A DNA stretch of 64,000 nucleotides. It comes from an uncultured Psychroserpens sp. (GTDB lineage Bacteria > Bacteroidota > Bacteroidia > Flavobacteriales > Flavobacteriaceae). Position numbers and translations under genes: made by a program. The DNA lies in assembly GCF_947500255.1 (NCBI RefSeq), contig NZ_CANMRL010000002.1, positions 186,001 to 250,000 of the forward strand. Direction: 5' to 3'. This document shows, piece after piece, positions 3,610-16,769 of the stretch. Numbering within the stretch: the first letter of the stretch is position 1; each line of letters starts with the position of its first letter. The notes beneath the pieces are model-generated. The model did no database searches. It had not been told where the DNA came from and saw only the letters and a program-made list of their open reading frames with translations.

Positions 3610-4308
3610 CTATAAAATTCTAAATTCAAAAACACCAGACTCAGATGAATTGCCTTCAGCATCTTTGGTAATTATATTCCAATAATATGTATTACCTGAT
3701 GTTACCGAAACTGTTAATTGATCTACAGACATATCGCTTGTATTTAAACTCGGCGGATTATTGGTTCCAAAATACACATCGTAGCCTACAATATCATTGT
3801 CAACATCACTTCCACTCCAGTCTAATGTGACTGAGTTTGTGGCAGAAATAGTTTGAGCCATACTTGGTGAAATTATTTCGGCAGGAAAAGGTGCATAGGT
3901 TTGAACACCTGGACCAGCATTGTAAAAATTCCAACTAGCACTCACTTTAGCTTCCCCTTGATAATTATATTCTACAAACCATCTAAAGGCTTCAGCGCGA
4001 CTTATGGTTACAGGAAATATAAAGTCTGATGTTTCGTGCTGTGTAACAACACCAGTATCTAAATTTTCTACAGTGAGTGTGTAACTCTCTGCATTATCAT
4101 TGGGCTCCCATTCAAAGAAAACAGTACTCTCTGTAGGTGTTGGATTTTCACCTTCATTGCACAAAGAATCTTCTTGTGGGAAAATCAATTGTACTCCAAT
4201 TGGTGAATCCTGCCCTATTCCATTTCCATTTATAGGTCCATCATCTGTAGTATCGCTGCATCCCAACACCAAAATTACTACACAAATTAAATAGGTTATC
4301 TGCTTCAT
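3610..4308 (-). CDS. Lipoprotein with fibronectin type III-like domain
   Basis: This 232-residue protein begins with a lipoprotein signal peptide ending in the lipobox VLGC, followed by an acidic and glycine-rich linker. Two beta-sandwich segments follow. The first holds VFFEWEPNDNAESYTL (about residues 65-125). The second holds LDWSGSDVDNDIVGYDVYFG and ends in YYWNIITKDAEGNSS, the usual pattern of Fn3-like domains in Bacteroidota lipoproteins. No enzyme motif is seen. Its ATG overlaps the stop of the giant LRR gene upstream by four bases (ATGA), so it is the last gene of that operon. An accessory or anchoring role at the cell surface is inference. Confidence 0.8.
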   Translation of the reverse strand: MKQITYLICVVILVLGCSDTTDDGPINGNGIGQDSPIGVQLIFPQEDSLCNEGENPTPTESTVFFEWEPNDNAESYTLTVENLDTGVVTQHETSDFIFPVTISRAEAFRWFVEYNYQGEAKVSASWNFYNAGPGVQTYAPFPAEIISPSMAQTISATNSVTLDWSGSDVDNDIVGYDVYFGTNNPPSLNTSDMSVDQLTVSVTSGNTYYWNIITKDAEGNSSESGVFEFRIL

Positions 4309-7300
4309 TTTTTTACGATTTTTAATGTAGATGTCATCGTTTCTGATTTTACGATAATTAGATATATACCATCAGGTAAGTTAGTAGTGTCTATACTCAT
4401 ATTCGTTCCTTCGTTTACAATAGTTTTGTTTAAAACCAGTTGTCCTAATATAGAATACAACTTAACACTCACTTCTTCATCTTCAATACCATTGTAAATA
4501 TTAATCTTGTTTTCAAAAGGGTTTGGATACACTAGAAAATCTTCTGTCATCAATATGCGCTCTTCATAAACCCCTTGGCATTCTAAATCTGTACTTACTT
4601 TTAATGTATTTATACCTTGCTGTAACTCTAGGGTAATTGTTGAGTTATGGGTAGTGAATGTCTCATCATTAAATTTAATGTTGTAACTAGAACTACCAGA
4701 CATATCAAGAGACACTTCATTTCCTGATGCCATTCTGCTTGCAAAAACTTCCAGCGGATCTGGTTGGGTAATAACAATAGTATAGCAACTCACATAATCT
4801 GGCCATTCCTCGATGGTAATACACATTTCATAGGTTCCAGCCAAGAGATTAAAAATATCCACATCATTGGTAAAGTTATATTCTTGAAAAAATTCATCAT
4901 TAGTAAGTGTGACTGTATATGTGTAAAGTTCTTGGGCTACAATAGTAATTTTACCATTATTACTGTTTAAACAGGTTTCACCAGTGATTGATACGGTAAA
5001 ATTATCATTTGGTAAATCTGGAAAGGCACATCCTGTAAAATCTACTGCAGCTCCAAATTCGGTATTAGGGCAAAGATCATCTTCATTTGGAACGCCATCA
5101 TTATCGGCATCTTCGCATATGGTTTGATAACTAGCAGAATCATCTTTAATCCAATTATCATAAGTACCATCAGTATTAGAAATTACAGCAACGGGATCAT
5201 CAACTAAAATACAACCTAAACCTGGATTGTTTGATGCATTAAATAGTTGCAAATTTTCATTATTTCCATTTTGTAAATTGAGTTGATCTCCAACTAACAT
5301 ATTTGACTGACAAAGCAGTTGGGTTAAATTAGTATTTTGGGTAACACTCAGACTACTTAATTGATTTGCGGCACAGTTTAGTTCTTCTAAATCTATTAAA
5401 TTCTCTACATTTAGATTTGTAAATAGATTATTTGAAACATTCAAATCTAAAAGACTTAAATTGGTGTCAAAGTTAAGCTGCGTCAAGCTATTGTTGGAGA
5501 CATTCAAGGTTGTTAAATTTAACAAAGCTGATAGGTCTAAATCTGTGAGCATATTCTCTGAAGCATTTAAAACTATCAAAAGAGAATTGTTACTTAAGTC
5601 TAATGTTGCTATACTGTTGTCATCTATCTCTAAACTTGTTAAACTTACAAACGCTTCAATACCTGTTGCATCAAAAATCCCTCTTCCGCTTACATTTAAA
5701 AATGTAAGACCTTCGATATTCTCGGTAAATACATAATCATCTAATGATCCAGAATCGTAACCTAAATCGATTAAAGCTTGCTCAAAATTATCATCTGGTA
5801 CATATGTTTGTCCGAAAAAACATTCTGTAGCAAATTGCGCTGTTGCATCTATAGTCCAGTTTGCGCCAGCAGGCACAGAGCCAGTATCGATTTCAATACA
5901 AACTAAATTTGGATTATTTATGGCATTTAAGTTAGTTAATATCGCATTTTGCCCGTTTTTAATATTAAGTGTTTCTAGCAGATTAGACTGACAACTGATA
6001 TTTGTAAGAGATTGATTCTGCTGAAAATCGAGTTCAATAATTTGGTTGTCATCACAATTAAAAATTTCTAATGACAAAATCTCACTTGGCAAAAATGATG
6101 TAAATGCATTGTTACTAATATTCAAATCTGAAAGGTCTGAATTTGCGCTAAGATCTAGACTGTTTATTGAATTTCCAGAGCAATCAAGTACGATTAAAGC
6201 CGTACTATTCTCAATAGTTAAATCTGAAAGTACATTATTAGAACAATTGATATTTAATAAGTTAGTATTAGAACTTAAATCTATTTCACTCAAGTTATTA
6301 TTAGAACAATTTAAAATTTCCAAAGCAATAAAATCTTCTATTCCTGTAAAGTCGGCAATAGTATTTCCACTAACATCTAAACTGATGAGCTCTTCTATAT
6401 TTTCGGTTAATACATAGTCATTTAAAGGACCAGAGTCATACCCTAAATTGATTAAGGCTTGTTCAAAATTATCATCAGGCACATAGGTTTCGCCAAAATT
6501 GCAATCTTCATTATAGCTTGTAGCATCATCTTTAATCCAATTTACACCAATAGCATTAGTATCATCAATTTGAATACAAGTTAAATTAGGGTTACTTGTA
6601 GCATTAAAACTTGCAATATCTGCATTCATACCATTTTGAATATTAACAAAATCGAATAGGTTGTTAGACACATTTATAACTACAGTTTCTGGGCAAAACT
6701 CATCTTGGTTGACATTATATATACATGCGGAAATTGCCATTGTAGTTAAATCTATAGCATCATTAATTTGATTGCTACTAATATTTAATCGTTTTAAGGC
6801 TCCCAAATTGTTAGACAAGACAAAAGTTGTCAATAGGTTAGAACTACAGTCTACTTCAATTAAGTTCGTATTAGGAGTTAAATCTAGAGTAGTTAATTGG
6901 TTATTTGAACACGACAAAAACTCTAGAAGTGTGTTTGAACTTAAGTTTAATTGTGTTATGTCATTAAAACTACAATTTAATTGTTCTAGATCAACATTCA
7001 TTGTAACATTAAGCTGTGACAAATTATTTTGAGATCCTTGCGCTTCAACTAAATTGATATTATTCTGAAGGTTTATATCTGAAATTTGATTATCAGTGAA
7101 TGATAAAAACGTTAATTCAGTATTGGATGAAATATCAAGTTGAGTTAAATCATTCGATGCACAATTTAAAGTAGTTAACGATTGATAATTACCAACCAAT
7201 ACATCTGAAAGATTATTACTAACACAAGTAATACTAACAAGAGTTGTGTTGTTTACTGTTGTGGTTACTAAGTTATTTATACTATTACTGTTGCAATTAA

Positions 7301-9764
7301 GACCTTCTAGAGCTACATTATTGCTAATGTCTAGATTTGTTAAATCATTATTTGAGCAATTCAATTCTCTTAAAGACGTATTGCCTGATATGTCTAGAAC
7401 GTCTAAATTATTATCTGCACAATCTAAAATTTCGAGATTCGTATTTATGGATGTATTGAGATTAGTTAAATTATTTCCTGCACAGAATAATTCTATCAAA
7501 CTCACTGTTCCAGTTGTGTCAAATAATCCATTGGTATCGTTTACATCATTTGTAAGCAAATAGTTAGAACTGCAATTGAGACGCTCTAAATAAATCATGT
7601 TACTAACGTCTAAATCATCTAAATAATTTCCACTACAGTCTAACTCTATTAACGACTTAAAATCTCTTATTCCAGTTAAATCAGAAATGCTCTCATCACT
7701 AACATTTAACACTTCTAAATGCTCAATGTTAGAGGTTAATACTTGCCCATCTATAACATCATCGTAATTAAAATCAATGAGTGCTTGTTCAAAAAACGGA
7801 TCAGGAATTAAGGTAAAACGACTATTTAGGCAATCGCCATCATATGATGCAAAATCATCTTTTTGCCAACTTCCAGGAATACTTCCTACAATGGCATTAT
7901 CAACATTGATACAAAATAAATTAGGATTTCCGGTAGCATTAAAGGTGGTCAGGGATCCGTTACTTCCGTTTTCAACATTTAAGGTTTTTAATGCATTTAA
8001 GTTACAAGTCACAGATAGTAAAGCGGTATTCGCTGTGAAATCTAGATCTTCAATTTGATTTATCGAACAATCCAAAAGCTCTAAATCAGTATTCGCGCTC
8101 AAGTCTAAACTAGTAAGCTGGTTGTTTGACACATTTAAATTTTGTAATACATCAAAATCTTGAATACCTGTTAAGTCTGCAATTGCAAGCCCTGAAACAT
8201 CTAAAACAGTTACCGCAATGATGTCTATAGTTGCAACAAAGTTATTTAGTGTTCCATCAGAGTCTATACCTTGATCAATGAGAGCTTGTTCAAAATTATC
8301 ATCAGGTATATAAGTACCGCAGTCAAGATTATATGTTGCTATTGCATCTTTTAGCCAACCTGCTGCGCCATTGGCAAATGCCACGTCATCTACATTTATA
8401 CAAAATAGATTTGTATTATTAGTTGCATTTAAGGACGTTATTGCAGTATTATTTCCATTATCTATGTATAAGGCAAAGAGGTTATTATCGTTACATAAAA
8501 CACTTGTTAAAACTGTATTTGATCTTATATCTAAACTTTCAATCAGATTTGTCGAACAGTCAAAATTATTCAACATCAAATTACCGCTCACATTTATGCT
8601 GGTGAGCGCATTATTAGAGCAATTGAGTATCTCTAGTGCTGTGTTATTACTTAAATCTAATGAATCAATTACATTGCTAGCACAGTTGAGGTTTATTAAA
8701 GCTGTATTGGTATTTAATTCTAAAACAGATACATCATTATTCGAAATATCTAATTGAAACATCATTCCATTATTTGAAAAATTTACGCTTTCAATCGAAT
8801 TAAAACTACAATCTAAAATTCCCAAAGCAGAAAAATCTTCAATTCCAATTAAATTAGAAATTGATGCATTTGAAATATCTAAGTTTGTAATGTCAATTAT
8901 ATTTTCTGTTAACACAAAATTATCTATAACATCATCGTAGCCTTGATCGATCAATACTTGCTCAAAATTATCATCTGGTATGTAAGTGTAAATATTGGTA
9001 CAAGTAGTTTCACTGTAGTAGGTCCAATCATCTTTAATCCATCCTGAAGGCGTAAAACCGTTATCGATTTGAATACAGAATAAATCTGGATTATCGCTGG
9101 CATCAAACAAAGCAATAAGGTCGTTAAAACCATTACTTACTATGAGTGATGTTAATTGATTTCTAGATACATTAATTAAAGCTGAACCTTGGCACAATGT
9201 AATTGGATCTGTTTGCGGATTGGGGCAGACTAGTGAATTAATAGTACTTAAATCTAAGTTGGTTAAAGAATTATTAGAAGCATCAAGACTTTTTAGTATC
9301 GTATTAGCTGATAAGTTGAGTGTATTAATTTGATTTGAAGAGCAAAATAGATCTTCTAAATCTAAGTTATTACTCAAGACCAATTCACCTACTATTCTAT
9401 TATTTGATACATTTAATAATTTTAAATTAGTGTTTGTTGAAACATCAATAGTTTCCAACCTATTATCATTACATAGTAAAATTTCAATGCTCGCGAAATC
9501 CTCAATCCCTGTAAGGTCAGCAATTTCTAAATCAATGACACTAAGTGTGACGACATTAGATATTCTATCTGTAAGTACTAAATTATTATTCGCGATTCCA
9601 TCTCCCATACTATTAGCATCTCCAACAGCTACTATAGAGCCGTCCTCGGCATGTGTTTCGAGATAATTTTCGAAATTATTATCGGGAATAGATGTTGTTT
9701 GTGCGCTTAAGATGGATGAAGCGAACAACAGTGTAATCACTAAAAACTGAAAACTATTTTTCAT
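4305..9764 (-). CDS. Giant leucine-rich-repeat surface protein with T9SS sorting domain
   Basis: This 1819-residue secreted protein has a signal peptide (cut near SILSAQ) and six tandem modules. Each starts with a variant of YVPDDNFEQALIDLGYD, at about residues 25, 263, 485, 653, 1094 and 1321. Each module continues with short leucine-rich repeats of the form LxxLNCSNNxLxxLDLSxNT. Module four is about twice as long as the others; modules five and six are the most alike. After the repeats come a calcium-loop-like segment (DADNDGVPNEDDLCPN, near 1550) and an Ig-like region. The C-terminal sorting domain has YPNPFENKINI and ends in LKIVKK. T9SS should export it and attach it to the surface. The ligand is unknown; binding or adhesion is inference from the LRR fold. 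Confidence 0.9.
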   Translation of the reverse strand: MKNSFQFLVITLLFASSILSAQTTSIPDNNFENYLETHAEDGSIVAVGDANSMGDGIANNNLVLTDRISNVVTLSVIDLEIADLTGIEDFASIEILLCNDNRLETIDVSTNTNLKLLNVSNNRIVGELVLSNNLDLEDLFCSSNQINTLNLSANTILKSLDASNNSLTNLDLSTINSLVCPNPQTDPITLCQGSALINVSRNQLTSLIVSNGFNDLIALFDASDNPDLFCIQIDNGFTPSGWIKDDWTYYSETTCTNIYTYIPDDNFEQVLIDQGYDDVIDNFVLTENIIDITNLDISNASISNLIGIEDFSALGILDCSFNSIESVNFSNNGMMFQLDISNNDVSVLELNTNTALINLNCASNVIDSLDLSNNTALEILNCSNNALTSINVSGNLMLNNFDCSTNLIESLDIRSNTVLTSVLCNDNNLFALYIDNGNNTAITSLNATNNTNLFCINVDDVAFANGAAGWLKDAIATYNLDCGTYIPDDNFEQALIDQGIDSDGTLNNFVATIDIIAVTVLDVSGLAIADLTGIQDFDVLQNLNVSNNQLTSLDLSANTDLELLDCSINQIEDLDFTANTALLSVTCNLNALKTLNVENGSNGSLTTFNATGNPNLFCINVDNAIVGSIPGSWQKDDFASYDGDCLNSRFTLIPDPFFEQALIDFNYDDVIDGQVLTSNIEHLEVLNVSDESISDLTGIRDFKSLIELDCSGNYLDDLDVSNMIYLERLNCSSNYLLTNDVNDTNGLFDTTGTVSLIELFCAGNNLTNLNTSINTNLEILDCADNNLDVLDISGNTSLRELNCSNNDLTNLDISNNVALEGLNCNSNSINNLVTTTVNNTTLVSITCVSNNLSDVLVGNYQSLTTLNCASNDLTQLDISSNTELTFLSFTDNQISDINLQNNINLVEAQGSQNNLSQLNVTMNVDLEQLNCSFNDITQLNLSSNTLLEFLSCSNNQLTTLDLTPNTNLIEVDCSSNLLTTFVLSNNLGALKRLNISSNQINDAIDLTTMAISACIYNVNQDEFCPETVVINVSNNLFDFVNIQNGMNADIASFNATSNPNLTCIQIDDTNAIGVNWIKDDATSYNEDCNFGETYVPDDNFEQALINLGYDSGPLNDYVLTENIEELISLDVSGNTIADFTGIEDFIALEILNCSNNNLSEIDLSSNTNLLNINCSNNVLSDLTIENSTALIVLDCSGNSINSLDLSANSDLSDLNISNNAFTSFLPSEILSLEIFNCDDNQIIELDFQQNQSLTNISCQSNLLETLNIKNGQNAILTNLNAINNPNLVCIEIDTGSVPAGANWTIDATAQFATECFFGQTYVPDDNFEQALIDLGYDSGSLDDYVFTENIEGLTFLNVSGRGIFDATGIEAFVSLTSLEIDDNSIATLDLSNNSLLIVLNASENMLTDLDLSALLNLTTLNVSNNSLTQLNFDTNLSLLDLNVSNNLFTNLNVENLIDLEELNCAANQLSSLSVTQNTNLTQLLCQSNMLVGDQLNLQNGNNENLQLFNASNNPGLGCILVDDPVAVISNTDGTYDNWIKDDSASYQTICEDADNDGVPNEDDLCPNTEFGAAVDFTGCAFPDLPNDNFTVSITGETCLNSNNGKITIVAQELYTYTVTLTNDEFFQEYNFTNDVDIFNLLAGTYEMCITIEEWPDYVSCYTIVITQPDPLEVFASRMASGNEVSLDMSGSSSYNIKFNDETFTTHNSTITLELQQGINTLKVSTDLECQGVYEERILMTEDFLVYPNPFENKINIYNGIEDEEVSVKLYSILGQLVLNKTIVNEGTNMSIDTTNLPDGIYLIIVKSETMTSTLKIVKK

Positions 9765-9796
9765 AACACTTTAGTTATTTGAAACACGCGTTTATT

Positions 9797-12127
9797 TTAA
9801 TTTTTAGCTTCTTTAATAACCTCCTTGTGATAATGAATGTGTTGATCAAACTTATCTTTTAAAGAATTAGTGAATTTAAGCTTAAAGCTAGGGTCTTCTT
9901 TTAATTTCTTCCACACTAAATGCTTCATAGTGTCGATACCTTGATCTTGCATCATTTTTTCGGCTAGTTTTAATCCGTTTTCTATGTCGGCATCTGTTAT
10001 TTCATAATATATGATATCATTTTCAACGGTATAGTTACGTCCATCGGCAGACATCCCACTCGTAGCATCTTCATCTAGGTGAGAGTTATTAATATCTGTG
10101 ACTGAAGTACCATTTTCAAGAACAACGATTCTCTCAATGGTCTGCTGTAAAAGTTTTTTTAATTCATTGATCTCATTAGCCTGACTTAAAAACTGTTCTT
10201 CTAATTTTTCAATAAACGGACTCGTATCGTTAGCGTTCAAACCAACTGCAACATTTACATAGTTAAAACCAGATTTAAAATCGACCGATTCCCATGCAAC
10301 ACCAACAATATTTTTAATATCTCTAGGTTTTATGTCGGCTGGTGATACAGCTATACCTATACCATCATTATTACCGCTAGGTAAGATATAATCACCAATA
10401 TTTACTTTCCCATAAACCTTTACAGGTACTTGTCCCATAAAAGCTACTTTTTCATAGTATTTTTCTAATTGAGGTTGTGGTAATGCTCCAAGAACAATTG
10501 GTTTATAAGAAATAACCATCATTCTATGAGATCCGTTAGTAGTTTTGGATATTTTTCCTCCGTTGACTCCTACAATATCACCATACGACATCGTTTCATT
10601 TATATCTGCTCTAATGAGATACTCTGCATAATCTCCTGCACCAGATGCATATGAAACTCCTTTAAATTTTTGTTTGTTATAGTCAAAAACTTGCAAGTTT
10701 CTAACAGCAAAAATCTCGTTTGCTATAGCTGCAATTTCCTTAATTATTTCAAGTGCTAAAGATGCTATTTCTGCGGCTATTTTTGCTGGTCCTGGTGATA
10801 CTACACAAGCACCAAACCCAACACAAGCTCTTACATCTGCAGATGCTGAAGTTAAAGCAATACCTGCTATTGTGACATCAATTGTTTGCCAAACCAAATC
10901 TAAAGAACCATCTACAACATCATAAATTACGTTTAATCTATCTAAATTATAATCTGCATTATTAGTAAACTCAGATTCAACTGTTTCGCCTTCAATTCTT
11001 CCCCAAAGCATTGGTGCATTATCATAATTTGGAATCGTAACACCAGAGACTGTATTTGCGTCATTGCCATAAAAATCCACCCATGGCTCAAATGGCGCTC
11101 CACCACTCAACAACTCCCATAAAACATTAGCAGCACCTCCAATACCTGCTAATGGTGCTAACTCAGACACGTCATTTGGTGATGTTTCATCCCAAAACGA
11201 AATATAATTGTTTTCATTTCTGGCACCTACTGCATTCACTTTAATCGCGATCCCTTGGTTTCCACCTTCAATTAGCAATGGATATTTATTGATGTCTAAA
11301 TCGGATCCATTTAAAGTTGACGTTATTTTTACCTGTGAATCTGAAGTTACATTAAGTCCGCCATCCAAATGCGTTGAATCTGTGACTTTTAATGTTTCTG
11401 CTGTTAGGTCTCCAAAACTAGCTTCTCCATTCACAATTAAATCGTTCAAGGTTGTTAATCCTAGTACATCTAAAGTTCCATCTAAGGCAGTATTCCCATT
11501 AACACCTAAATCTCCTGTTAATGTTGATGGGCTACCGTTGTTTACATTAAAGGCTTCATTTAGATTTACAATGCCATCAACGTCTAAAGTTCCTGTTAGG
11601 TTAGTAGCATTACCATTATTTACATCTAAAGTACTACTTAAATTTGTTGGTCCTTCCACCTGTAATTCTCCGTTTAAATATGTTCTATCATCTACGGTTA
11701 AGGTTCCTGTAGCTGTAATGTTTCTGTGATAAGCGTAAGGTAAAAACGTTAATCTTTCCCTGCTCATGGTTTCAAAATTATTACCAGCATCAAAATCAAT
11801 CTCTACTTTTAAATCTTTGGGAGTGCCATCCCAACTTATTTCCTTAAAATAATCGTGTTCTGCATCACCGATTAGAAGATTGATACGTCCAAACTCATCT
11901 GTATTTGTAACTTGAACTTCTTGAAATTCTATTTGATTGCCACTATCATATATTGTGAACCTTATGGCTATTGTTGTATTTGGCAAATAATTACCTTCCG
12001 AATCCACTCCAGGTAATTCTAAATTATCTGGACTAATAATTACGGCTTGATATGAAATGCCATCCGTCTGTGCAAATGCCTGCGACATTAAACAAATAAA
12101 CAGTGTAAGAGTAAGTATTCTTTTCAT
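9797..12127 (-). CDS. Secreted tail-fibre-like protein with coiled-coil C-terminus
   Basis: I start this 776-residue protein at the ATG that gives the signal peptide MKRILTLTLFICLMSQAFA; a TTG 36 bases upstream would add a hydrophilic extension. Residues about 25-130 resemble the N-terminal domain of many Bacteroidota secreted proteins (GISYQAVI, then NLLIGD). About residues 140-285 hold short beta repeats rich in L, N, G, T and D (NLTGTLDVDG, TLTGDLGVNG), as in phage tail fibres and trimeric adhesins. Further on, DYAEYL, MSYGDIVGVNGGKIS and IVGVAWES recall C-terminal domains of phage appendage proteins. A leucine zipper-like coiled coil follows near residue 650. There is no T9SS domain. A trimeric surface fibre is inference. 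It lies between two T9SS cargo genes in one operon. Confidence 0.72.
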   Translation of the reverse strand: MKRILTLTLFICLMSQAFAQTDGISYQAVIISPDNLELPGVDSEGNYLPNTTIAIRFTIYDSGNQIEFQEVQVTNTDEFGRINLLIGDAEHDYFKEISWDGTPKDLKVEIDFDAGNNFETMSRERLTFLPYAYHRNITATGTLTVDDRTYLNGELQVEGPTNLSSTLDVNNGNATNLTGTLDVDGIVNLNEAFNVNNGSPSTLTGDLGVNGNTALDGTLDVLGLTTLNDLIVNGEASFGDLTAETLKVTDSTHLDGGLNVTSDSQVKITSTLNGSDLDINKYPLLIEGGNQGIAIKVNAVGARNENNYISFWDETSPNDVSELAPLAGIGGAANVLWELLSGGAPFEPWVDFYGNDANTVSGVTIPNYDNAPMLWGRIEGETVESEFTNNADYNLDRLNVIYDVVDGSLDLVWQTIDVTIAGIALTSASADVRACVGFGACVVSPGPAKIAAEIASLALEIIKEIAAIANEIFAVRNLQVFDYNKQKFKGVSYASGAGDYAEYLIRADINETMSYGDIVGVNGGKISKTTNGSHRMMVISYKPIVLGALPQPQLEKYYEKVAFMGQVPVKVYGKVNIGDYILPSGNNDGIGIAVSPADIKPRDIKNIVGVAWESVDFKSGFNYVNVAVGLNANDTSPFIEKLEEQFLSQANEINELKKLLQQTIERIVVLENGTSVTDINNSHLDEDATSGMSADGRNYTVENDIIYYEITDADIENGLKLAEKMMQDQGIDTMKHLVWKKLKEDPSFKLKFTNSLKDKFDQHIHYHKEVIKEAKN

Positions 12128-12159
12128 AATTGATGGGTTTATAATTATTAATTTCTTTT

Positions 12160-12669
12160 TCAAATTTTTATAAGTTTTGTATTAAAGTGTTTGCTACCAG
12201 AAATCACTTTTAAGAAGTAAGTTCCTGTTGCAATACCATTAATTTTTAATTTGATTTTTTGAGCTGGTAAAAATTCTTGAGAATGGACTAATTTAGCGTC
12301 TACATCAAACATCATCACAGATATTTTTTTTAGTATCGAATTACTAAATGCAATAGTTATTGATTCTTTAAAAGGGTTGGGATATACTTCAGCTTCAAGG
12401 TTATAATCATGACCTTTAACAGCGATTATATTGCTTAAAGGTTGCTGATAACCTTGTCTTAAATAGTAACCGTTGTTAAAATGTGTTCCAATAACGCTTG
12501 CTTGACCTACACTTTGACTCACTTTGTAAGTTCCTTTTGTAGTAACTACATTTTGAGAAGACCCACTGCTGCCAAGACTTGATCTCATTATGCGATATCC
12601 TGAATTATCTTGTGCCAGAAATTCTTGTGAAAATCCAAACAGTACTAGTATGCATATTAAAGTTTTCAT
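12160..12669 (-). CDS. Small secreted T9SS cargo protein
   Basis: This 169-residue protein has a signal peptide (MKTLICILVLFGFSQEFLAQ), a short central part with TYKVSQSVGQASVIGT and YYLRQGYQQP, and a C-terminal type IX sorting domain. That domain starts at VYPNPFKESITIAF and ends FNTKLIKI. The middle part is a common lead-in to sorting domains in Bacteroidota and shows no enzyme motif. It is the first gene of a leftward set of four with the tail-fibre-like, LRR and lipoprotein genes. A TGTCCAC direct repeat lies about 90 bases before its ATG. Its function is unknown. Confidence 0.8.
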   Translation of the reverse strand: MKTLICILVLFGFSQEFLAQDNSGYRIMRSSLGSSGSSQNVVTTKGTYKVSQSVGQASVIGTHFNNGYYLRQGYQQPLSNIIAVKGHDYNLEAEVYPNPFKESITIAFSNSILKKISVMMFDVDAKLVHSQEFLPAQKIKLKINGIATGTYFLKVISGSKHFNTKLIKI

Positions 12670-12758
12670 TGCTTTATTCTTTTTATTGTCAAGCTATTAA
12701 TAGTGTTTGTAGCTTAAACTTATAAGTAATTATTCATTTATTTAAAAAACAGTTCATA

Positions 12759-12776
12759 TGTCCACCATTTGTCTAC
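12759..12776. promoter_or_regulatory. Candidate operator, TGTCCAC direct repeat (site 1)
   Basis: The sequence reads TGTCCACCATTTGTCTAC: two heptamers whose starts are 11 bases apart, the second with one change. It lies about 90 bases before the first gene of the leftward surface-protein operon. The same architecture occurs at 13504-13522 and 15657-15675. An 11-base period places both half-sites on one face of the helix, as expected for a tandemly bound regulator. Assignment to the neighbouring TPR-HTH regulator is inference. Confidence 0.5.
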
Positions 12777-12792
12777 TTAAATGCTCAATTGC

Positions 12793-13440
12793 TTAATAAC
12801 TGCAATAGCATTTAGGTAGATTTATGATAAAACCCAAACCAAATTGATGGGCATTCAAATTCAGTTTTTCAGCATTCTTTCCACTACTAATCAATACTGA
12901 TTTTCCATAATTATAACCCACAAAAATTGCAGTACTTCTTGAAATAGGGTACTGCATCTCTACTCCTCCTCTAAAGAATAAAATATTGTTATTAAACTCT
13001 TCTTCTCCAACAAGGTTAAAAACATCATTGTTTATCGTTTGGTTACCTCTTATCAAAAACTCTGAAGCCATAGAAACGTTAGCAAAAAAGCTTAGATCTC
13101 TTAGCTCAAACATCTTTATTCCTAATCCTGCTTTTACGCCTAAGTAACTCACATCCCATTCAAAGTAATTATCAATACTAGACTCACTACCAATTGCAGC
13201 ATAACTATTGTAGGATGCACCTAGCGACAAAAACAATGTTCTGCTATTATTTATAGTTTGTCTGTAACCCATACCAAAATAGGATTTCGATTTAGAGAGT
13301 AAATTATTGAGAGGTTGCCCTTGTGAGTTTTCATAATCAAAAGACGAAACCGTTGTGCCAAACTCAAAGCTGAGTTGTTGGCAAAAACATAAATTACTTA
13401 GTAATAGAACAACTATCAGAATTGAATAATTCTTTATCAT
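12793..13440 (-). CDS. Outer-membrane beta-barrel protein
   Basis: This 215-residue protein has a signal peptide (ILIVVLLLSNLCFCQ) and alternating hydrophobic/polar strands typical of small porin-like barrels (YFGMGYRQTI, LFLSLGASYN, YLGVKAGLGIKMF, AIFVGYNYGKSV, HQFGLGFIINL). It ends KCYCSY rather than in a clear terminal aromatic strand, slightly unusual for a barrel. It is read leftward, has its own TGTCCAC repeat 64 bases upstream (13504-13522), and is followed by the T9SS operon. The specific function is unknown; a surface partner of the neighbouring secreted proteins is inference. Confidence 0.75.
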   Translation of the reverse strand: MIKNYSILIVVLLLSNLCFCQQLSFEFGTTVSSFDYENSQGQPLNNLLSKSKSYFGMGYRQTINNSRTLFLSLGASYNSYAAIGSESSIDNYFEWDVSYLGVKAGLGIKMFELRDLSFFANVSMASEFLIRGNQTINNDVFNLVGEEEFNNNILFFRGGVEMQYPISRSTAIFVGYNYGKSVLISSGKNAEKLNLNAHQFGLGFIINLPKCYCSY

Positions 13441-13503
13441 GAAACCAGTTTTTGTTGAAGCAATTTAGATAAAATAAGGCCTGGTTTTTTATAAATATTG
13501 CGT

Positions 13504-13522
13504 TGTCCACCATTTGTCCACC
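13504..13522. promoter_or_regulatory. Candidate operator, TGTCCAC direct repeat (site 2)
   Basis: The site reads TGTCCACCATTTGTCCACC, two perfect TGTCCAC heptamers separated by four bases (period 11). It lies in the 228-base gap between the leftward barrel gene and the rightward TPR-HTH regulator gene, 64 bases from the barrel start and about 145 bases from the regulator start. It could serve either gene or both. I see no clear TAnnTTTG element in this gap. Confidence 0.55.
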
Positions 13523-13668
13523 ATCAAAAAAAGCATGCAAATAAAAATTTGAGGATATTTATATTAAGCAATTAAAGTTTAAAAAATAACATACAACTAA
13601 TTGATTATCAAGAATATAATTTATACCATTAAATGTTAGTATCTTGAATAATCTAACCACCAAAAAAC

Positions 13669-15603
13669 ATGGAATCAAAATCTCGTACCAAAAATGTCCC
13701 AGTTTTAAAATTTCAGAATAATGTCTACTCGAACGTGGACAAATTAGCTTTTCTATTTTTTCTATTAGTCTTCGGAATACATTTCAATTTAAATGCACAG
13801 TTAGAAAAAAAAGTGGATAGCATGCAGCAAATAATTAATACGGCAAAAAATGATAGCATTCGAGCAACAGAGCAATTAACTATAGCTGAGATGATTATTT
13901 ATCAAGATCCGCAAAAGGCTAAAACCTATATTGATAGTGCCGAAACGATTTATAAAACAAAAACATACGAAAGAGGCTTGGCGAATTTATATGCTGTAAA
14001 GGCCAACTATTCATATACACAGAGCAATTATGACGATGCTATGAAGTATCTAGATAAATCTGGTAACGAATTCATGAAAGTTGGTGATACTATTTTAGGA
14101 TTGACAATCAAGTCTAACATTATAATTACCATGAAAGCACTCTCAAAACCACAAGACAGTATAGAGCGCATCATAAATGAAATTGAACCTTTAATTCTAA
14201 AACATAAAGACACTGCTTTAATGGCTACTATGTTAGAACATAAAAGTGACATTGCACTAGAAAGAGGTCATAGAAATATTAGCTTATCAAAAATGCTCGA
14301 AGCTATTGAGTTAAGAGAACAATTTAACGACTCGCTATACTTACCACAAACCTATTACAAGACAGGTGTACTCTATTTAGAAATGTTTGATTATGAATCT
14401 GGTATCTCACAATTAGATATTGGTATTGAAATTAGCGATGTTATCGGACAAAATAATATGAAAGCGCAATTACTTCGTATGAAAGGTATTGGTTTAATGG
14501 AACTTAAGCGCTATGACGATGCTAAGCAAAACTTTGAAGAGGCCTTACAAATTTCAAAAATGATTAATTTAAGACGGAATACGGCTAAAACATTAATACA
14601 AATGGCAGAATTAGAAACGCGCCAGAACCATATTACAGAAGCCAAATCTTATCTTGAAGACTATAATAAGCTAGATGATGATCTCAAAAGAGGTGGTGCG
14701 CATTATGATTACAATTTAACACAAGGTCAATTAAATTTAAAAATAAACCAGCCTAAAGCAGCACTAGTAAATTTTAATTATTGCTTAAAAGATGCTGAGG
14801 CTATAAATTCCTTTAAAGATATTAGTTGGTCAAAACTGTATAAATCTCGTGCTCTTAAACAGCTGGGGCGATTTAATGAAGCTTATAGTGAACTACAAGA
14901 AAGTAGTGATGCTAAAGATTCGCTTAATAGTTATCTAAGAACGAGCTTAGCTGAAGAGCAAAAAATTATTTATGAAACCAATAGAAAAGAAAAAGAAATT
15001 GCGGTACAAAAATCTGAAATTGAATTACTTAAAGAACAAGAAAAAGTAGCACATACACGTCAACTTCTCTTAATTATAGGTATTGTCTCTTTGCTTCTGC
15101 TAGCCGGTTTATTGTTATACGGATTACGTCAAAAGATACAGAGAAATAAAGCAGAAAGAGAAAAATTAGACGCATCTCTTGAATTTAAAGAAAAAGAACT
15201 AACCACACATGCACTCCATCTGGCTCATAAAAATGAGGTTTTATTAGACTTAAAATCACAACTCAAAGAGCTAAAATCTGGTCCTGAAAATTCAAGAAAT
15301 TATCAAAAGGTTATCAATACTATAAACCTGGATATTAATAATGATGGTAATTGGGAACAATTTAGAACCTATTTTGAAGACGTACATAAAGACTTTAACG
15401 CTAAGGTCATGAAGACCTACCCAGAAGTTTCTACAAATGACTTAAGACTTATGGCGTTATTGAAAATGAATCTCTCAAGTAAAGAAATTGCAAACATTTT
15501 AAACATTTCTGCCGAAGGTGTTAAAAAGGCACGATACAGACTACGTAAAAAATTACAACTTTCTACGGAAGATTCATTACAAGAACTCGTTATAGAGCTG
15601 TAA
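13669..15603 (+). CDS. Membrane-tethered TPR/HTH transcriptional regulator
   Basis: This 644-residue protein has an N-terminal hydrophobic export or anchor segment (about residues 27-43, ending NLNAQ). Tetratricopeptide-like helices follow to about residue 430, and a coiled coil near 430-460. A transmembrane helix (LLLIIGIVSLLLLAGLLLYG) sits near residue 465. A cytoplasmic part ends in a LuxR-like helix-turn-helix (LRLMALLKMNLSSKEIANIL, then SAEGVKKARYRLRKKL) near 590-635. The topology suggests a one-component sensor: TPRs in the periplasm bind a signal or partner and the HTH acts on DNA at the membrane. The HTH family is established; the target is not. Surface-protein genes with shared candidate operators lie on both sides, so a local regulator is likely. 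Confidence 0.85.
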   Translation: MESKSRTKNVPVLKFQNNVYSNVDKLAFLFFLLVFGIHFNLNAQLEKKVDSMQQIINTAKNDSIRATEQLTIAEMIIYQDPQKAKTYIDSAETIYKTKTYERGLANLYAVKANYSYTQSNYDDAMKYLDKSGNEFMKVGDTILGLTIKSNIIITMKALSKPQDSIERIINEIEPLILKHKDTALMATMLEHKSDIALERGHRNISLSKMLEAIELREQFNDSLYLPQTYYKTGVLYLEMFDYESGISQLDIGIEISDVIGQNNMKAQLLRMKGIGLMELKRYDDAKQNFEEALQISKMINLRRNTAKTLIQMAELETRQNHITEAKSYLEDYNKLDDDLKRGGAHYDYNLTQGQLNLKINQPKAALVNFNYCLKDAEAINSFKDISWSKLYKSRALKQLGRFNEAYSELQESSDAKDSLNSYLRTSLAEEQKIIYETNRKEKEIAVQKSEIELLKEQEKVAHTRQLLLIIGIVSLLLLAGLLLYGLRQKIQRNKAEREKLDASLEFKEKELTTHALHLAHKNEVLLDLKSQLKELKSGPENSRNYQKVINTINLDINNDGNWEQFRTYFEDVHKDFNAKVMKTYPEVSTNDLRLMALLKMNLSSKEIANILNISAEGVKKARYRLRKKLQLSTEDSLQELVIEL

Positions 15604-15623
15604 ATGAGAAGTTTAAAAACTAA

Positions 15624-15675
15624 AGTCCACTTCTTGTCCTTATCCATATTTTGAGGTGTCCACATGATGTCCACC
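15624..15675. promoter_or_regulatory. Candidate operator cluster, TGTCCAC repeats (site 3)
   Basis: A perfect pair TGTCCACATGATGTCCACC lies at 15657-15675. A weaker pair (AGTCCAC, then TGTCCTT, also 11 bases apart) lies at 15624-15641. The two pairs begin exactly 33 bases apart, three helical steps. The cluster follows the regulator gene and lies upstream of the cadherin-like lipoprotein and of a TAGGTTTG element at 15707-15714. This is the place expected for activator binding. Confidence 0.5.
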
Positions 15676-15706
15676 TCTATTATTTTTAATCATAACTTAC
15701 TGATTG

Positions 15707-15714
15707 TAGGTTTG
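15707..15714 (+). promoter_or_regulatory. Possible -7 promoter element before the cadherin-like lipoprotein gene
   Basis: TAGGTTTG matches the Bacteroidota -7 consensus TAnnTTTG. It would place a transcription start near 15720 and leave a leader of about 110 bases containing the GC-rich palindromic element. No good -33 motif is seen, which would fit activation from the TGTCCAC repeats upstream. Confidence 0.3.
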
Positions 15715-15729
15715 TTGTGTCATTAATTT

Positions 15730-15795
15730 GGCAACCAGTTTTGTGGTGCCTTGCTCTGGTTAGGCTGCAGACTTTACCAGTTGCAAGTCGCTACA
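15730..15795. repeat. GC-rich element with nested inverted repeats
   Basis: This stretch is much richer in G and C than its surroundings. It holds AACCAG (15733-15738), CTGGTT about 20 bases later and ACCAG at 15776-15780, so two alternative hairpins can form. An outer GCAAC/GTTGC pair lies at 15731-15735 and 15780-15784. It is open in frame with the lipoprotein downstream, but its translation is tryptophan- and cysteine-rich and unlike a signal peptide, so it is not likely coding. It looks like a dispersed palindromic repeat unit or a structured leader; copy number cannot be seen here. Confidence 0.4.
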
Positions 15796-15830
15796 AAAAC
15801 TTATTTACAAAACCACAAAACACAAGTATT

Positions 15831-16769
15831 ATGAACATTCAAGTTAGACTTTTTGCCCTTTTAATAGCTCTTACATTTTTCGCTTGCTCAAGTGAAGATG
15901 ACTCTAGCAACCCTCCAGCTTCAAACAATACGATAGAAGCTTCTATTGATGAATATCCAACATCGGGAGATTTAGTTACAACAATTAACTCTAACCTATC
16001 AGGAGAAGTAACCTTTAGCATTACCTCACAATCTATTTCGCAAGCCATGGGTATAGACAGTGATACAGGAGAATTAAGAGTATTAGCTTGGCAAGTGTTC
16101 GATTATGAAGCTAATCCTGTAATTACTCTTACGGTTAAAGCCACCAATGGCATAGATACCGAAAACAAGGCTGTGATTGTTTCAATTAATAATATAGATG
16201 ATATTGCTGCTTTCTTAAATAGTTCGAGAACAGCTTATGACAATGCTGCCGATGGTGAATGGATTAGCATTACTGAAAGCGAATACAATGATTTGGCCAA
16301 TTACTTGGCAGAAGTTACTAAAAGTGGAGCAACAGATAGTCATTTTTCAAGTACAGCAAATATTCAACAAAATTCGGGCAATTCTCTTTTAGCAAATAGA
16401 AATGGAGATACCATGCCAGAAGGCAGTTACATTTTTGCGTTTAAACACTACTCTTGGGCAAATAATATTTCAGGCAGTAAAGTTAAATTATCACAAGGTG
16501 ATGAGTTTGGAACTTACGAATCTATCGGAACTTCCTTACCAGAGCACAACGCAGAGTATAACTATTTTGTAATTAAAGGAAATGCAACCGCAACATCTGC
16601 AGAAGCACACCTTGCTATATTTGCAAATAATAGTATTGGTTATAAAAACATCTCAGGAACAATCTATGGTTGGGGAGATGGTGGTGATACTAATATGATT
16701 ACAAATGGTAATATCAATGCAGTTTTCCTTTACCAAGGCTTAAGTACAACAATGAAACAATGGGATTAG
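15831..16769 (+). CDS. Cadherin-like lipoprotein
   Basis: I use the ATG giving MNIQVRLFALLIALTFFACS, a clear lipoprotein signal with the lipobox FFAC; the frame stays open upstream to a GTG inside the GC-rich element. The 312-residue protein has an acidic-serine linker and then a cadherin-like repeat at about residues 35-125 (VTFSITSQS, MGIDSDTGELRV, VITLTVKATNGIDTENKAV). About 180 residues of unrecognised sequence follow (DSHFSSTANIQQ, YIFAFKHYSWANN, ISGTIYGWGDGGDT). It is probably a surface lipoprotein. It follows the TPR-HTH regulator with candidate operators between them and is closed by a hairpin at 16792-16822. Confidence 0.75.
   Translation: MNIQVRLFALLIALTFFACSSEDDSSNPPASNNTIEASIDEYPTSGDLVTTINSNLSGEVTFSITSQSISQAMGIDSDTGELRVLAWQVFDYEANPVITLTVKATNGIDTENKAVIVSINNIDDIAAFLNSSRTAYDNAADGEWISITESEYNDLANYLAEVTKSGATDSHFSSTANIQQNSGNSLLANRNGDTMPEGSYIFAFKHYSWANNISGSKVKLSQGDEFGTYESIGTSLPEHNAEYNYFVIKGNATATSAEAHLAIFANNSIGYKNISGTIYGWGDGGDTNMITNGNINAVFLYQGLSTTMKQWD

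Follow-up and report, generated by a model that had tools for sequence, protein, structure and literature searches.

The window analysed here is a stretch of 64,000 nucleotides from an uncultured Psychroserpens sp. of the Flavobacteriaceae (contig NZ_CANMRL010000002.1, positions 186,001 to 250,000). Between window positions 3610 and 13440 it carries five leftward genes, which encode an outer-membrane β-barrel, a small cargo protein of the type IX secretion system (T9SS), a protein resembling phage tail fibres (hereafter the fibre), a giant leucine-rich repeat (LRR) protein and a lipoprotein. The small cargo protein, whose gene lies directly upstream of the fibre gene, consists largely of a C-terminal sorting domain (CTD). 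Small CTD genes pair with fibre-like genes across the Bacteroidota, which suggests a way for such bacteria to display fibres on their surface.

Organization of the locus

All five open reading frames (ORFs) lie on the minus strand. The barrel (12793–13440, 215 aa) is an eight-stranded, OmpA/Ail/OmpX-like protein with a C-terminal CxC tail, as assigned from Pfam, a structural model and an alignment. The small T9SS type A protein (12160–12669, 169 aa) comprises a signal peptide, a module of ~55 aa termed cargoN (12439–12606, delimited by profile A6, built here) and the CTD (residues 95–167, 12169–12387, from Pfam). The fibre ORF spans 9797–12163 and encodes 788 aa from a TTG or 776 aa from the ATG at 12127; a signal-peptide-like stretch, recognized by eye, directly follows this ATG, and the 776-aa form (9797–12127) is taken as the fibre. 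The LRR protein (4305–9764, 1819 aa) has LRR_4 matches in 14 stretches and a PF18962 match at residues 1745–1816 (E 2.3e-13; Pfam). The last gene (3610–4308, 232 aa) encodes an fn3/Ig-like lipoprotein with a weak fn3 match; its lipobox, VLGC, was read by eye, and a stricter scripted pattern gave no match. From the barrel downward, the genes are separated by 123, 32 and 32 bp, and the last two overlap by 4 bp.

By eye, all five genes have a signal-peptide-like start, and one has a lipobox. Pfam and NCBIfam scans of seven window proteins assigned sorting domains, of type A, to just two of them, the small protein and the LRR protein; none was matched on the fibre or the lipoprotein. With their signal peptides, also read by eye, the small protein and the LRR protein qualify as T9SS type A cargo. 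The five proteins matched no PADLOC anti-phage defence profile at E 0.01, and ARAGORN found no tRNA within the window. The fibre is 99% identical to a copy in Psychroserpens luteolus, to which the genome is close.

Conservation of the gene set

The first-pass annotation had proposed that these genes form one surface-display operon and had made its co-conservation a test of that view, which the gene set passes. The five ORFs are real, and their arrangement is present in other genera, which makes it more than a chance neighbourhood. In all nine loci with the barrel first, here called type I (the window, L021–L027 and L052/L157), the order is barrel, small cargo, fibre, LRR protein and lipoprotein, with a divergent regulator; record titles name Psychroserpens, Paucihalobacter and Winogradskyella among the hosts. 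The LRR protein and the lipoprotein are conserved throughout type I, and L042, which starts inside the fibre at a contig end, continues with both. In type II loci, the order is small cargo, barrel, fibre. None of nine such loci (L029, L031, L032, L034–L038 and L040) has an LRR gene after the fibre, and the same order occurs in L028, L030, L033, L053, L065 and L071. At L043, the barrel match is weak.

Loci of both types were found via the fibre and are not a random sample; searches of 395 Bacteroidota genomes carry less bias as a test. For each genome, scoring was limited to the top few candidates (seven for the barrel and at most 16, 9 and 11 for cargoN, Peptidase_G2 and tailN, the N-terminal domain of the fibre), which makes the genome counts minimum values. 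The barrel profile (E 1e-8) is found in at least five of the 395 genomes, and all five have a small T9SS gene and a tailN gene alongside. In one of them (G163), the tailN protein has no Peptidase_G2 match. G429 has the small gene and the tailN gene, with a barrel frame that is apparently broken. The core is a trio of barrel, small T9SS protein and tailN protein, to which the LRR cargo and the lipoprotein are lineage additions; for this reason, the membership of these two in one apparatus is the weakest point of the operon proposal.

Some neighbours of the trio differ between lineages. In two Bacteroidales metagenome-assembled genomes (L028:11934-13826 and L030:11938-13800), the trio is followed by a protein of 620–630 aa, which in L028 has fn3 and Fib_succ_major domains. 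Many loci adjoin genes that match thrC or rimO of the window (names assigned by eye).

Pairing of tailN genes with small CTD genes

At E 1e-9, tailN occurs in at least 92 places in at least 60 of the 395 genomes. Of these places, 91 can be read as genes (our own six-frame ORFs of 80 aa or more), and the other (G222, L143) has a stop inside the match. A partner was defined as a CTD gene of 225 aa or less that immediately precedes the gene in question, at a distance of no more than 200 bp and on the same strand. Such a gene precedes 59 of the 91 tailN genes, compared with 3 of 356 other nearby genes, a background of CTD-less genes of 150 aa or more drawn from the same neighbourhoods rather than from whole genomes. 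The corresponding Fisher p of 3.5e-46 counts related genes separately and overstates the evidence, given the dependence between related genomes. Pairs were seen in 9 of 13 families and 25 of 33 genera. None of the 91 tailN proteins has a CTD of its own by a local profile. That profile was iterated on these loci; as a check, the 59 upstream partners were scanned with Pfam and NCBIfam, and 58 matched PF18962 and 58 TIGR04183. The module before the partner CTD is mostly short and loosely conserved, with the majority consensus GG...S...SxG...G..Q. For three further tailN genes, a small CTD gene is the immediate downstream neighbour, and in one case (L084) it is also the upstream partner of another tailN gene. 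Two more have a larger CTD neighbour; some adjacent CTD gene is found for 64 in total.

Sixty tailN proteins (58 of the 91 and two others) were scanned against Pfam. The matches include Peptidase_S74 (17 proteins), YadA_head (4), Peptidase_G2 (4), Collagen (3) and C1q (2), all motifs of trimeric proteins. There is no autotransporter anchor or usher among the 14 Pfam families matched (E 0.001).

Peptidase_G2 has at least 22 matches in at least 16 genomes. A CTD gene is adjacent or one barrel away in 14 of the 22 neighbourhoods, as judged by eye at a looser CTD threshold; 11 of these CTD genes are small, and three are frames of 270–472 aa. No CTD was found on the 22 Peptidase_G2 proteins themselves. 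It was considered that Peptidase_G2 proteins without such a neighbour come from genomes poor in T9SS signals, which proved wrong: the four genomes of family f37 have 83 to at least 150 matches and G251 at least 150.

Other arrangements were observed. Six large Peptidase_G2 proteins of family f37 (L054, L055, L057, L058, L059), which lack tailN, each precede a gene of 260–361 aa. Five of these downstream genes end, by eye, in an AxxYLIKxR-like motif and may encode a different kind of partner. In L117, L131 and L077, tailN proteins are followed by a cargoN-like small gene; the L117 protein has collagen repeats, and in L077 an additional gene of 298 aa, barrel-like by eye, comes after.

The fibre and its chaperone-like domain

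The fibre can be divided into a tailN domain (residues 20–140, 11708–12070; profile A8, built here), a β-repeat shaft (residues 141–270, 11318–11707; read from the sequence, with a weak Bactofilin match at E 0.17), a variable tip (residues 271–489, 10661–11317; delimited by identity across type I loci) and a Peptidase_G2-like chaperone domain (residues 490–645, 10193–10660; PF11962 and a Foldseek match to 3gqh). Behind the chaperone, a low-confidence model contains a long helix (residues 636–672, 10112–10222). The β-repeats and the phage-appendage-like region of the first-pass annotation thus stand, the latter as a Peptidase_G2 domain below the Pfam cut-off, and its coiled coil is only a possible reading of this helix.

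The 120-residue tailN domain is the most conserved part of the fibre and a candidate base or anchor; it matched no Pfam family. Across seven type I loci, tailN has a mean identity of 0.79, the repeats of 0.63 and the chaperone of 0.69. In the tip, mean identity is 0.56 at residues 271–390 (gap fraction 0.27) and 0.40 at residues 391–489. A tip that is less conserved than base and chaperone fits a binding fibre, and the tip is a candidate receptor-binding part. Mean identity in the tail end behind the chaperone is 0.36.

PF11962 (Peptidase_G2) matches the fibre at E 7e-5 with 22.7 bits, compared with a cut-off of 25. The AlphaFold monomer of the full-length fibre is poor (pLDDT 50) and was used for the chaperone segment alone, which has blocks at residues 501–630 with pLDDT 53–84. 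An intertwined trimer would explain the poor monomer model without being proved by it. In Foldseek, the only match of the fibre model below E 1e-3 is 3gqh_A (E 1.6e-4, prob 1.00, TMt 0.58), the C-terminal fragment of gp12 from phage phi29; by this low-confidence model, the chaperone segment shares its fold.

The motif DYAE (D499 to E502) is invariant in all 20 rows of profile A7, built on the chaperone domain. In the profile alignments, this motif falls on DFAE at residue 1 of 3gqh and, in the Dpo31 tailspike chaperone, on SDYAE. The whole-sequence E-values of the profile are 0.018 to 3gqh and 0.0013 to 28nb (Dpo31); taken singly, the aligned pieces score weakly (i-Evalues 1.1 to 27). In gp12, the D and E of DxAE are the catalytic residues. 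The available text of one study has the mature gp12 appendage extending to residue 691 (PMC6542822). Given that end, DYAE would lie at the N-terminus that cleavage newly creates, and a cut is predicted between G498 and D499. Phage chaperone domains of this general sort drive trimerization and then cleave themselves off, according to the sections available of two papers, which deal with serine-lysine relatives (PMC3828593; PMC8326128). With the single fibre sequence as query, the PDB had no credible match (best E 0.74) and PHROGs a single weak one, to a family of unknown function; Pfam matched no YadA anchor barrel on the fibre.

The small T9SS partner and the barrel

The CTD of the small protein matches PF18962 at E 1e-12 and TIGR04183. 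The ~55-aa module that precedes it follows the alignment pattern GxSGSS..SxGQxSVIGT..RQGxQQP and is matched by profile A6 in at least 7 of the 395 genomes. This cargoN module is a candidate binding site for tailN or the barrel.

The barrel matches OMP_b-brl in Pfam (E 3.5e-6, 27.8 bits vs a cut-off of 28.7), and its AlphaFold model (pLDDT 81) has Foldseek matches to Ail, OmpA and OmpX. It matched no NCBIfam family and does not qualify as a barrel of the PorP/SprF type. A seat for the fibre is a more likely role for it than a channel. Among 19 aligned barrels, 16 end in a Cys-x-Cys tail after the last strand (window 12793–12820), which is missing from those of L028, L030 and L033.

Regulator and operators

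Divergent to the barrel, on the plus strand, lies a gene for a regulator with tetratricopeptide repeats (TPR) and a LuxR-type domain (13669–15603, 644 aa). Pfam matches TPR_12 and, below cut-off, GerE (E 2.6e-4). The element GTGGACA-N4-GTGGACA consists of two 7-bp repeats that lie one helical turn apart. A repeat scan found it on the minus strand as operator 1, GTGGACAAATGGTGGACA, upstream of the barrel (13504–13521), and with one change as operator 2, GTAGACAAATGGTGGACA, between the barrel and the small T9SS gene (12759–12776). At up to three mismatches, the window has 2 matches vs 0.01 expected. The second operator suggests two transcripts, one of the barrel and one of the small cargo, fibre, LRR and lipoprotein genes, under one control.

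Both sites recur in all nine type I loci, some of which have one change in the first repeat of the site between barrel and small cargo. In 23 genomes of the genus, the pattern GTRGACANNNNGTGGACA matches exactly at 16 sites, every one of them in an island of this kind; 11 precede island genes, and five lie just behind a regulator. Its backward control has no match in these genomes. A narrower pattern with one mismatch returned the same 11 operon sites, and its control one match. The suggestion that a single regulator governs the genes is supported by this confinement of the repeat and by the way in which the repeat variant tracks the recognition helix of the regulator. In three type II loci (L032, L035, L038), GTGGACA is replaced by GGGTACA in both repeats. 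The helix reads DGIKKARQ at GGGTACA loci and EGVKKARY at GTGGACA loci, and further GGGTACA sites in L151, L153 and L156 also lie beside DGIKKARQ regulators. Repeat and helix agree at 6 of 6 GGGTACA sites and, where a regulator adjoins a GTGGACA trio locus, in 14 of 14 cases.

The regulator adjoins 17 of the 18 trio loci that bear the repeat; at L029, the repeat is present, and no regulator is adjacent. Neither repeat variant was found in the trio loci L028, L030, L033, L053, L065 and L071. Thus, repeat-based control belongs to one branch of the family. Scans for promoter and terminator consensus sequences gave no more matches than shuffled sequences (43 vs 53.9 and 3 vs 4.0), and the RNA fold of the gap between barrel and small cargo is not unusual (z −0.21). 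At L033:5685-8351, an apparent two-component sensor and a response regulator, both identified by eye, take the place of the regulator.

A model for fibre display and its alternatives

The locus is read here as a regulated cell-surface fibre cassette in which the T9SS signal of the fibre is supplied in trans, with a probability of roughly 0.57. In this model, the fibre would be exported by Sec and would fold into a homotrimer, aided by its C-terminal Peptidase_G2-like domain; this domain would then cleave itself off before D499. The remaining fibre would comprise the conserved tailN base, the β-repeat shaft and the variable binding tip. Because the C-terminus would be a disposable chaperone, a C-terminal T9SS signal could not stay on the fibre; a discarded chaperone would take the signal along, and a separate small protein would supply the CTD in trans. 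This would explain why a near-pure-CTD protein is so often encoded upstream of a CTD-less fibre. The ~55-aa module would hold the fibre or the barrel while the T9SS recognizes the CTD, and the complex would be carried through the outer membrane or held there. T9SS substrates are thought to exit the translocon CTD-first and bound to PorV, as stated in the available part of PMC10994853. In that case, the small protein could pull an attached fibre out after itself or retain it on the outside. The dedicated eight-stranded barrel would probably seat the fibre, the LRR cargo and the lipoprotein may be lineage-specific parts displayed alongside, and the divergent TPR-LuxR protein is predicted to bind the paired 7-bp repeats and to control the island as one. 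A wider proposal is more tentative, at somewhat less than even odds: T9SS export in trans may operate across the Bacteroidota, with a tiny CTD adaptor, encoded upstream, delivering or tethering CTD-less fibres of the phage-tail-fibre type, many of them with an expendable self-cleaving C-terminal chaperone. The present locus would add a dedicated small barrel and an operator that occurs nowhere else in the genome.

Several observations weigh against the cassette model. No small CTD gene lies directly upstream of 32 of the 91 tailN genes, and 27 have no adjacent CTD gene at all; in four of these 27 (L053, L065, L071 and L076), a CTD gene lies one position further, behind a barrel or a broken barrel frame. 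This genome itself has three further tailN genes (L046:9496-10470, L046:12718-14766 and L099:2941-4992) without an adjacent CTD gene. Eight of the 22 Peptidase_G2 proteins, six of family f37 and two of G251, likewise lack an adjacent CTD gene. The pairing also involves tailN proteins without a matched self-cleaving domain, which the argument from a disposable C-terminus leaves unexplained. For the fibre, the PF11962 match is below the Pfam cut-off, the individual pieces of the profile alignments to 3gqh are weak, and the full-length model is poor. The part behind the chaperone varies even more than the tip; it would be lost with the chaperone and is just as free to vary. Finally, the match between regulator and operator may reflect shared descent.

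In a serious though unlikely alternative, the T9SS would export the small CTD protein by itself. This protein would serve only as an anchor or cap for the fibre at the surface, and the fibre would cross the outer membrane by another route. According to the available text of PMC10202324, T9SS substrates can be attached to anionic lipopolysaccharide (A-LPS) at the surface, and the ~55-aa module could act as a pedestal linked in this way. The barrel could then belong to the other route. However, eight-stranded barrels are too narrow for the passage of a fibre, the barrel is absent from most pairs, and the Pfam matches of the 60 tailN proteins include no autotransporter or usher domain. A fibre that stays in the periplasm or is released in vesicles, with the pair merely co-regulated, would account for the absence of an outer-membrane export signal on the fibre itself, but it is harder to reconcile with a variable tip, with architectures that include tail-fibre, YadA-head, collagen and C1q parts and fit external binding, and with a phylum-wide pairing with a surface sorting signal; it is considered rather improbable.

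Much less probable still is that the adjacency reflects a tendency of surface-protein genes in general to cluster. CTD matches are frequent (from 12 to at least 150 per genome in 17 genomes), and 29 of the 356 background genes have some CTD neighbour. Yet the pattern in question, a small CTD gene placed immediately upstream in the same orientation, is found at 59 of 91 tailN genes and at 3 of 356 background genes, and it is spread over many families (9 of 13) and genera (25 of 33). That the locus is left over from a prophage or a phage-tail-like particle, in favour of which stands the chaperone domain shared with phage tail spikes, is the least credible explanation and was rejected: all five genes have signal-peptide-like starts and one a lipobox (by eye), and the seven window proteins scanned (3610–16769) match no phage structural family in Pfam. 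The single weak PHROGs match of unknown function, from a scan of the fibre alone, and the position of many loci beside genes matching thrC or rimO point the same way.

Relation to described systems

The fibre shares with phi29 gp12 and the Peptidase_G2 tail-spike chaperones a C-terminal chaperone-like domain with a D-x-A-E motif that opens the released fragment; the serine-lysine endosialidase domains and the MYRF ICA domains are grouped with gp12 as functional analogues. Unlike gp12, the present fibre is cellular, has a signal peptide and a T9SS partner, and carries an N-terminal domain without a Pfam family, and its cleavage is a prediction.

T9SS substrates are described as being sorted by a conserved CTD of their own, in the available text of PMC12618676. 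Among described arrangements, a type B CTD adhesin that has its own PorP/SprF barrel comes nearest, as in SprB/SprF and PG1035/PorP (available sections of PMC12618676 and PMC9143113). As far as these sections describe them, those systems resemble the present one in combining a surface protein with a dedicated outer-membrane barrel, in their linked genes and in their use of the T9SS. They differ in that the CTD is on the adhesin, whereas here a type A CTD is on a separate small protein, and the barrel here is short, eight-stranded and OmpA-like, in contrast to PorP/SprF. The small protein and the LRR protein carry TIGR04183/PF18962 as ordinary T9SS type A cargo does; unlike such cargo, the fibre has no signal, and its small partner is nearly without a passenger. 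YadA-type trimeric autotransporter adhesins are also trimeric surface fibres, as the present protein may be, and YadA_head occurs in 4 of the 60 tailN proteins. However, no YadA anchor is among the tailN Pfam matches, and export would need another route.

No description of a pair of a small CTD protein and a CTD-less fibre was found in the literature searched, which leaves out most subscription papers. The phylum-wide pairing of small CTD proteins with CTD-less fibres of trimeric type points to an apparently undescribed class of T9SS-linked surface structures. It would assign a function to many small proteins known solely by a T9SS type A sorting domain, and the operator would offer a local regulator–operator pair for TPR-LuxR regulators.

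Neighbouring genes and related islands

An operator-like site also lies behind the regulator (15657–15674, minus strand; repeat scan); the gene that it precedes (15717–16769) is conserved and lipoprotein-like and weakly matches cadherin. A repeat behind the regulator is likewise present in L021, L034, L037 and L040, so that the 15717–16769 gene may share the regulation. Other islands combine the GGGTACA repeat with a DGIKKARQ regulator (L034:1121-4257, L037:15353-18477 and L156). The L034 island has a gene for a lipoprotein-like protein of 558 aa without a Pfam match and one for a T9SS Cleaved_Adhesin protein, and the genes of the L037 island are of similar size.

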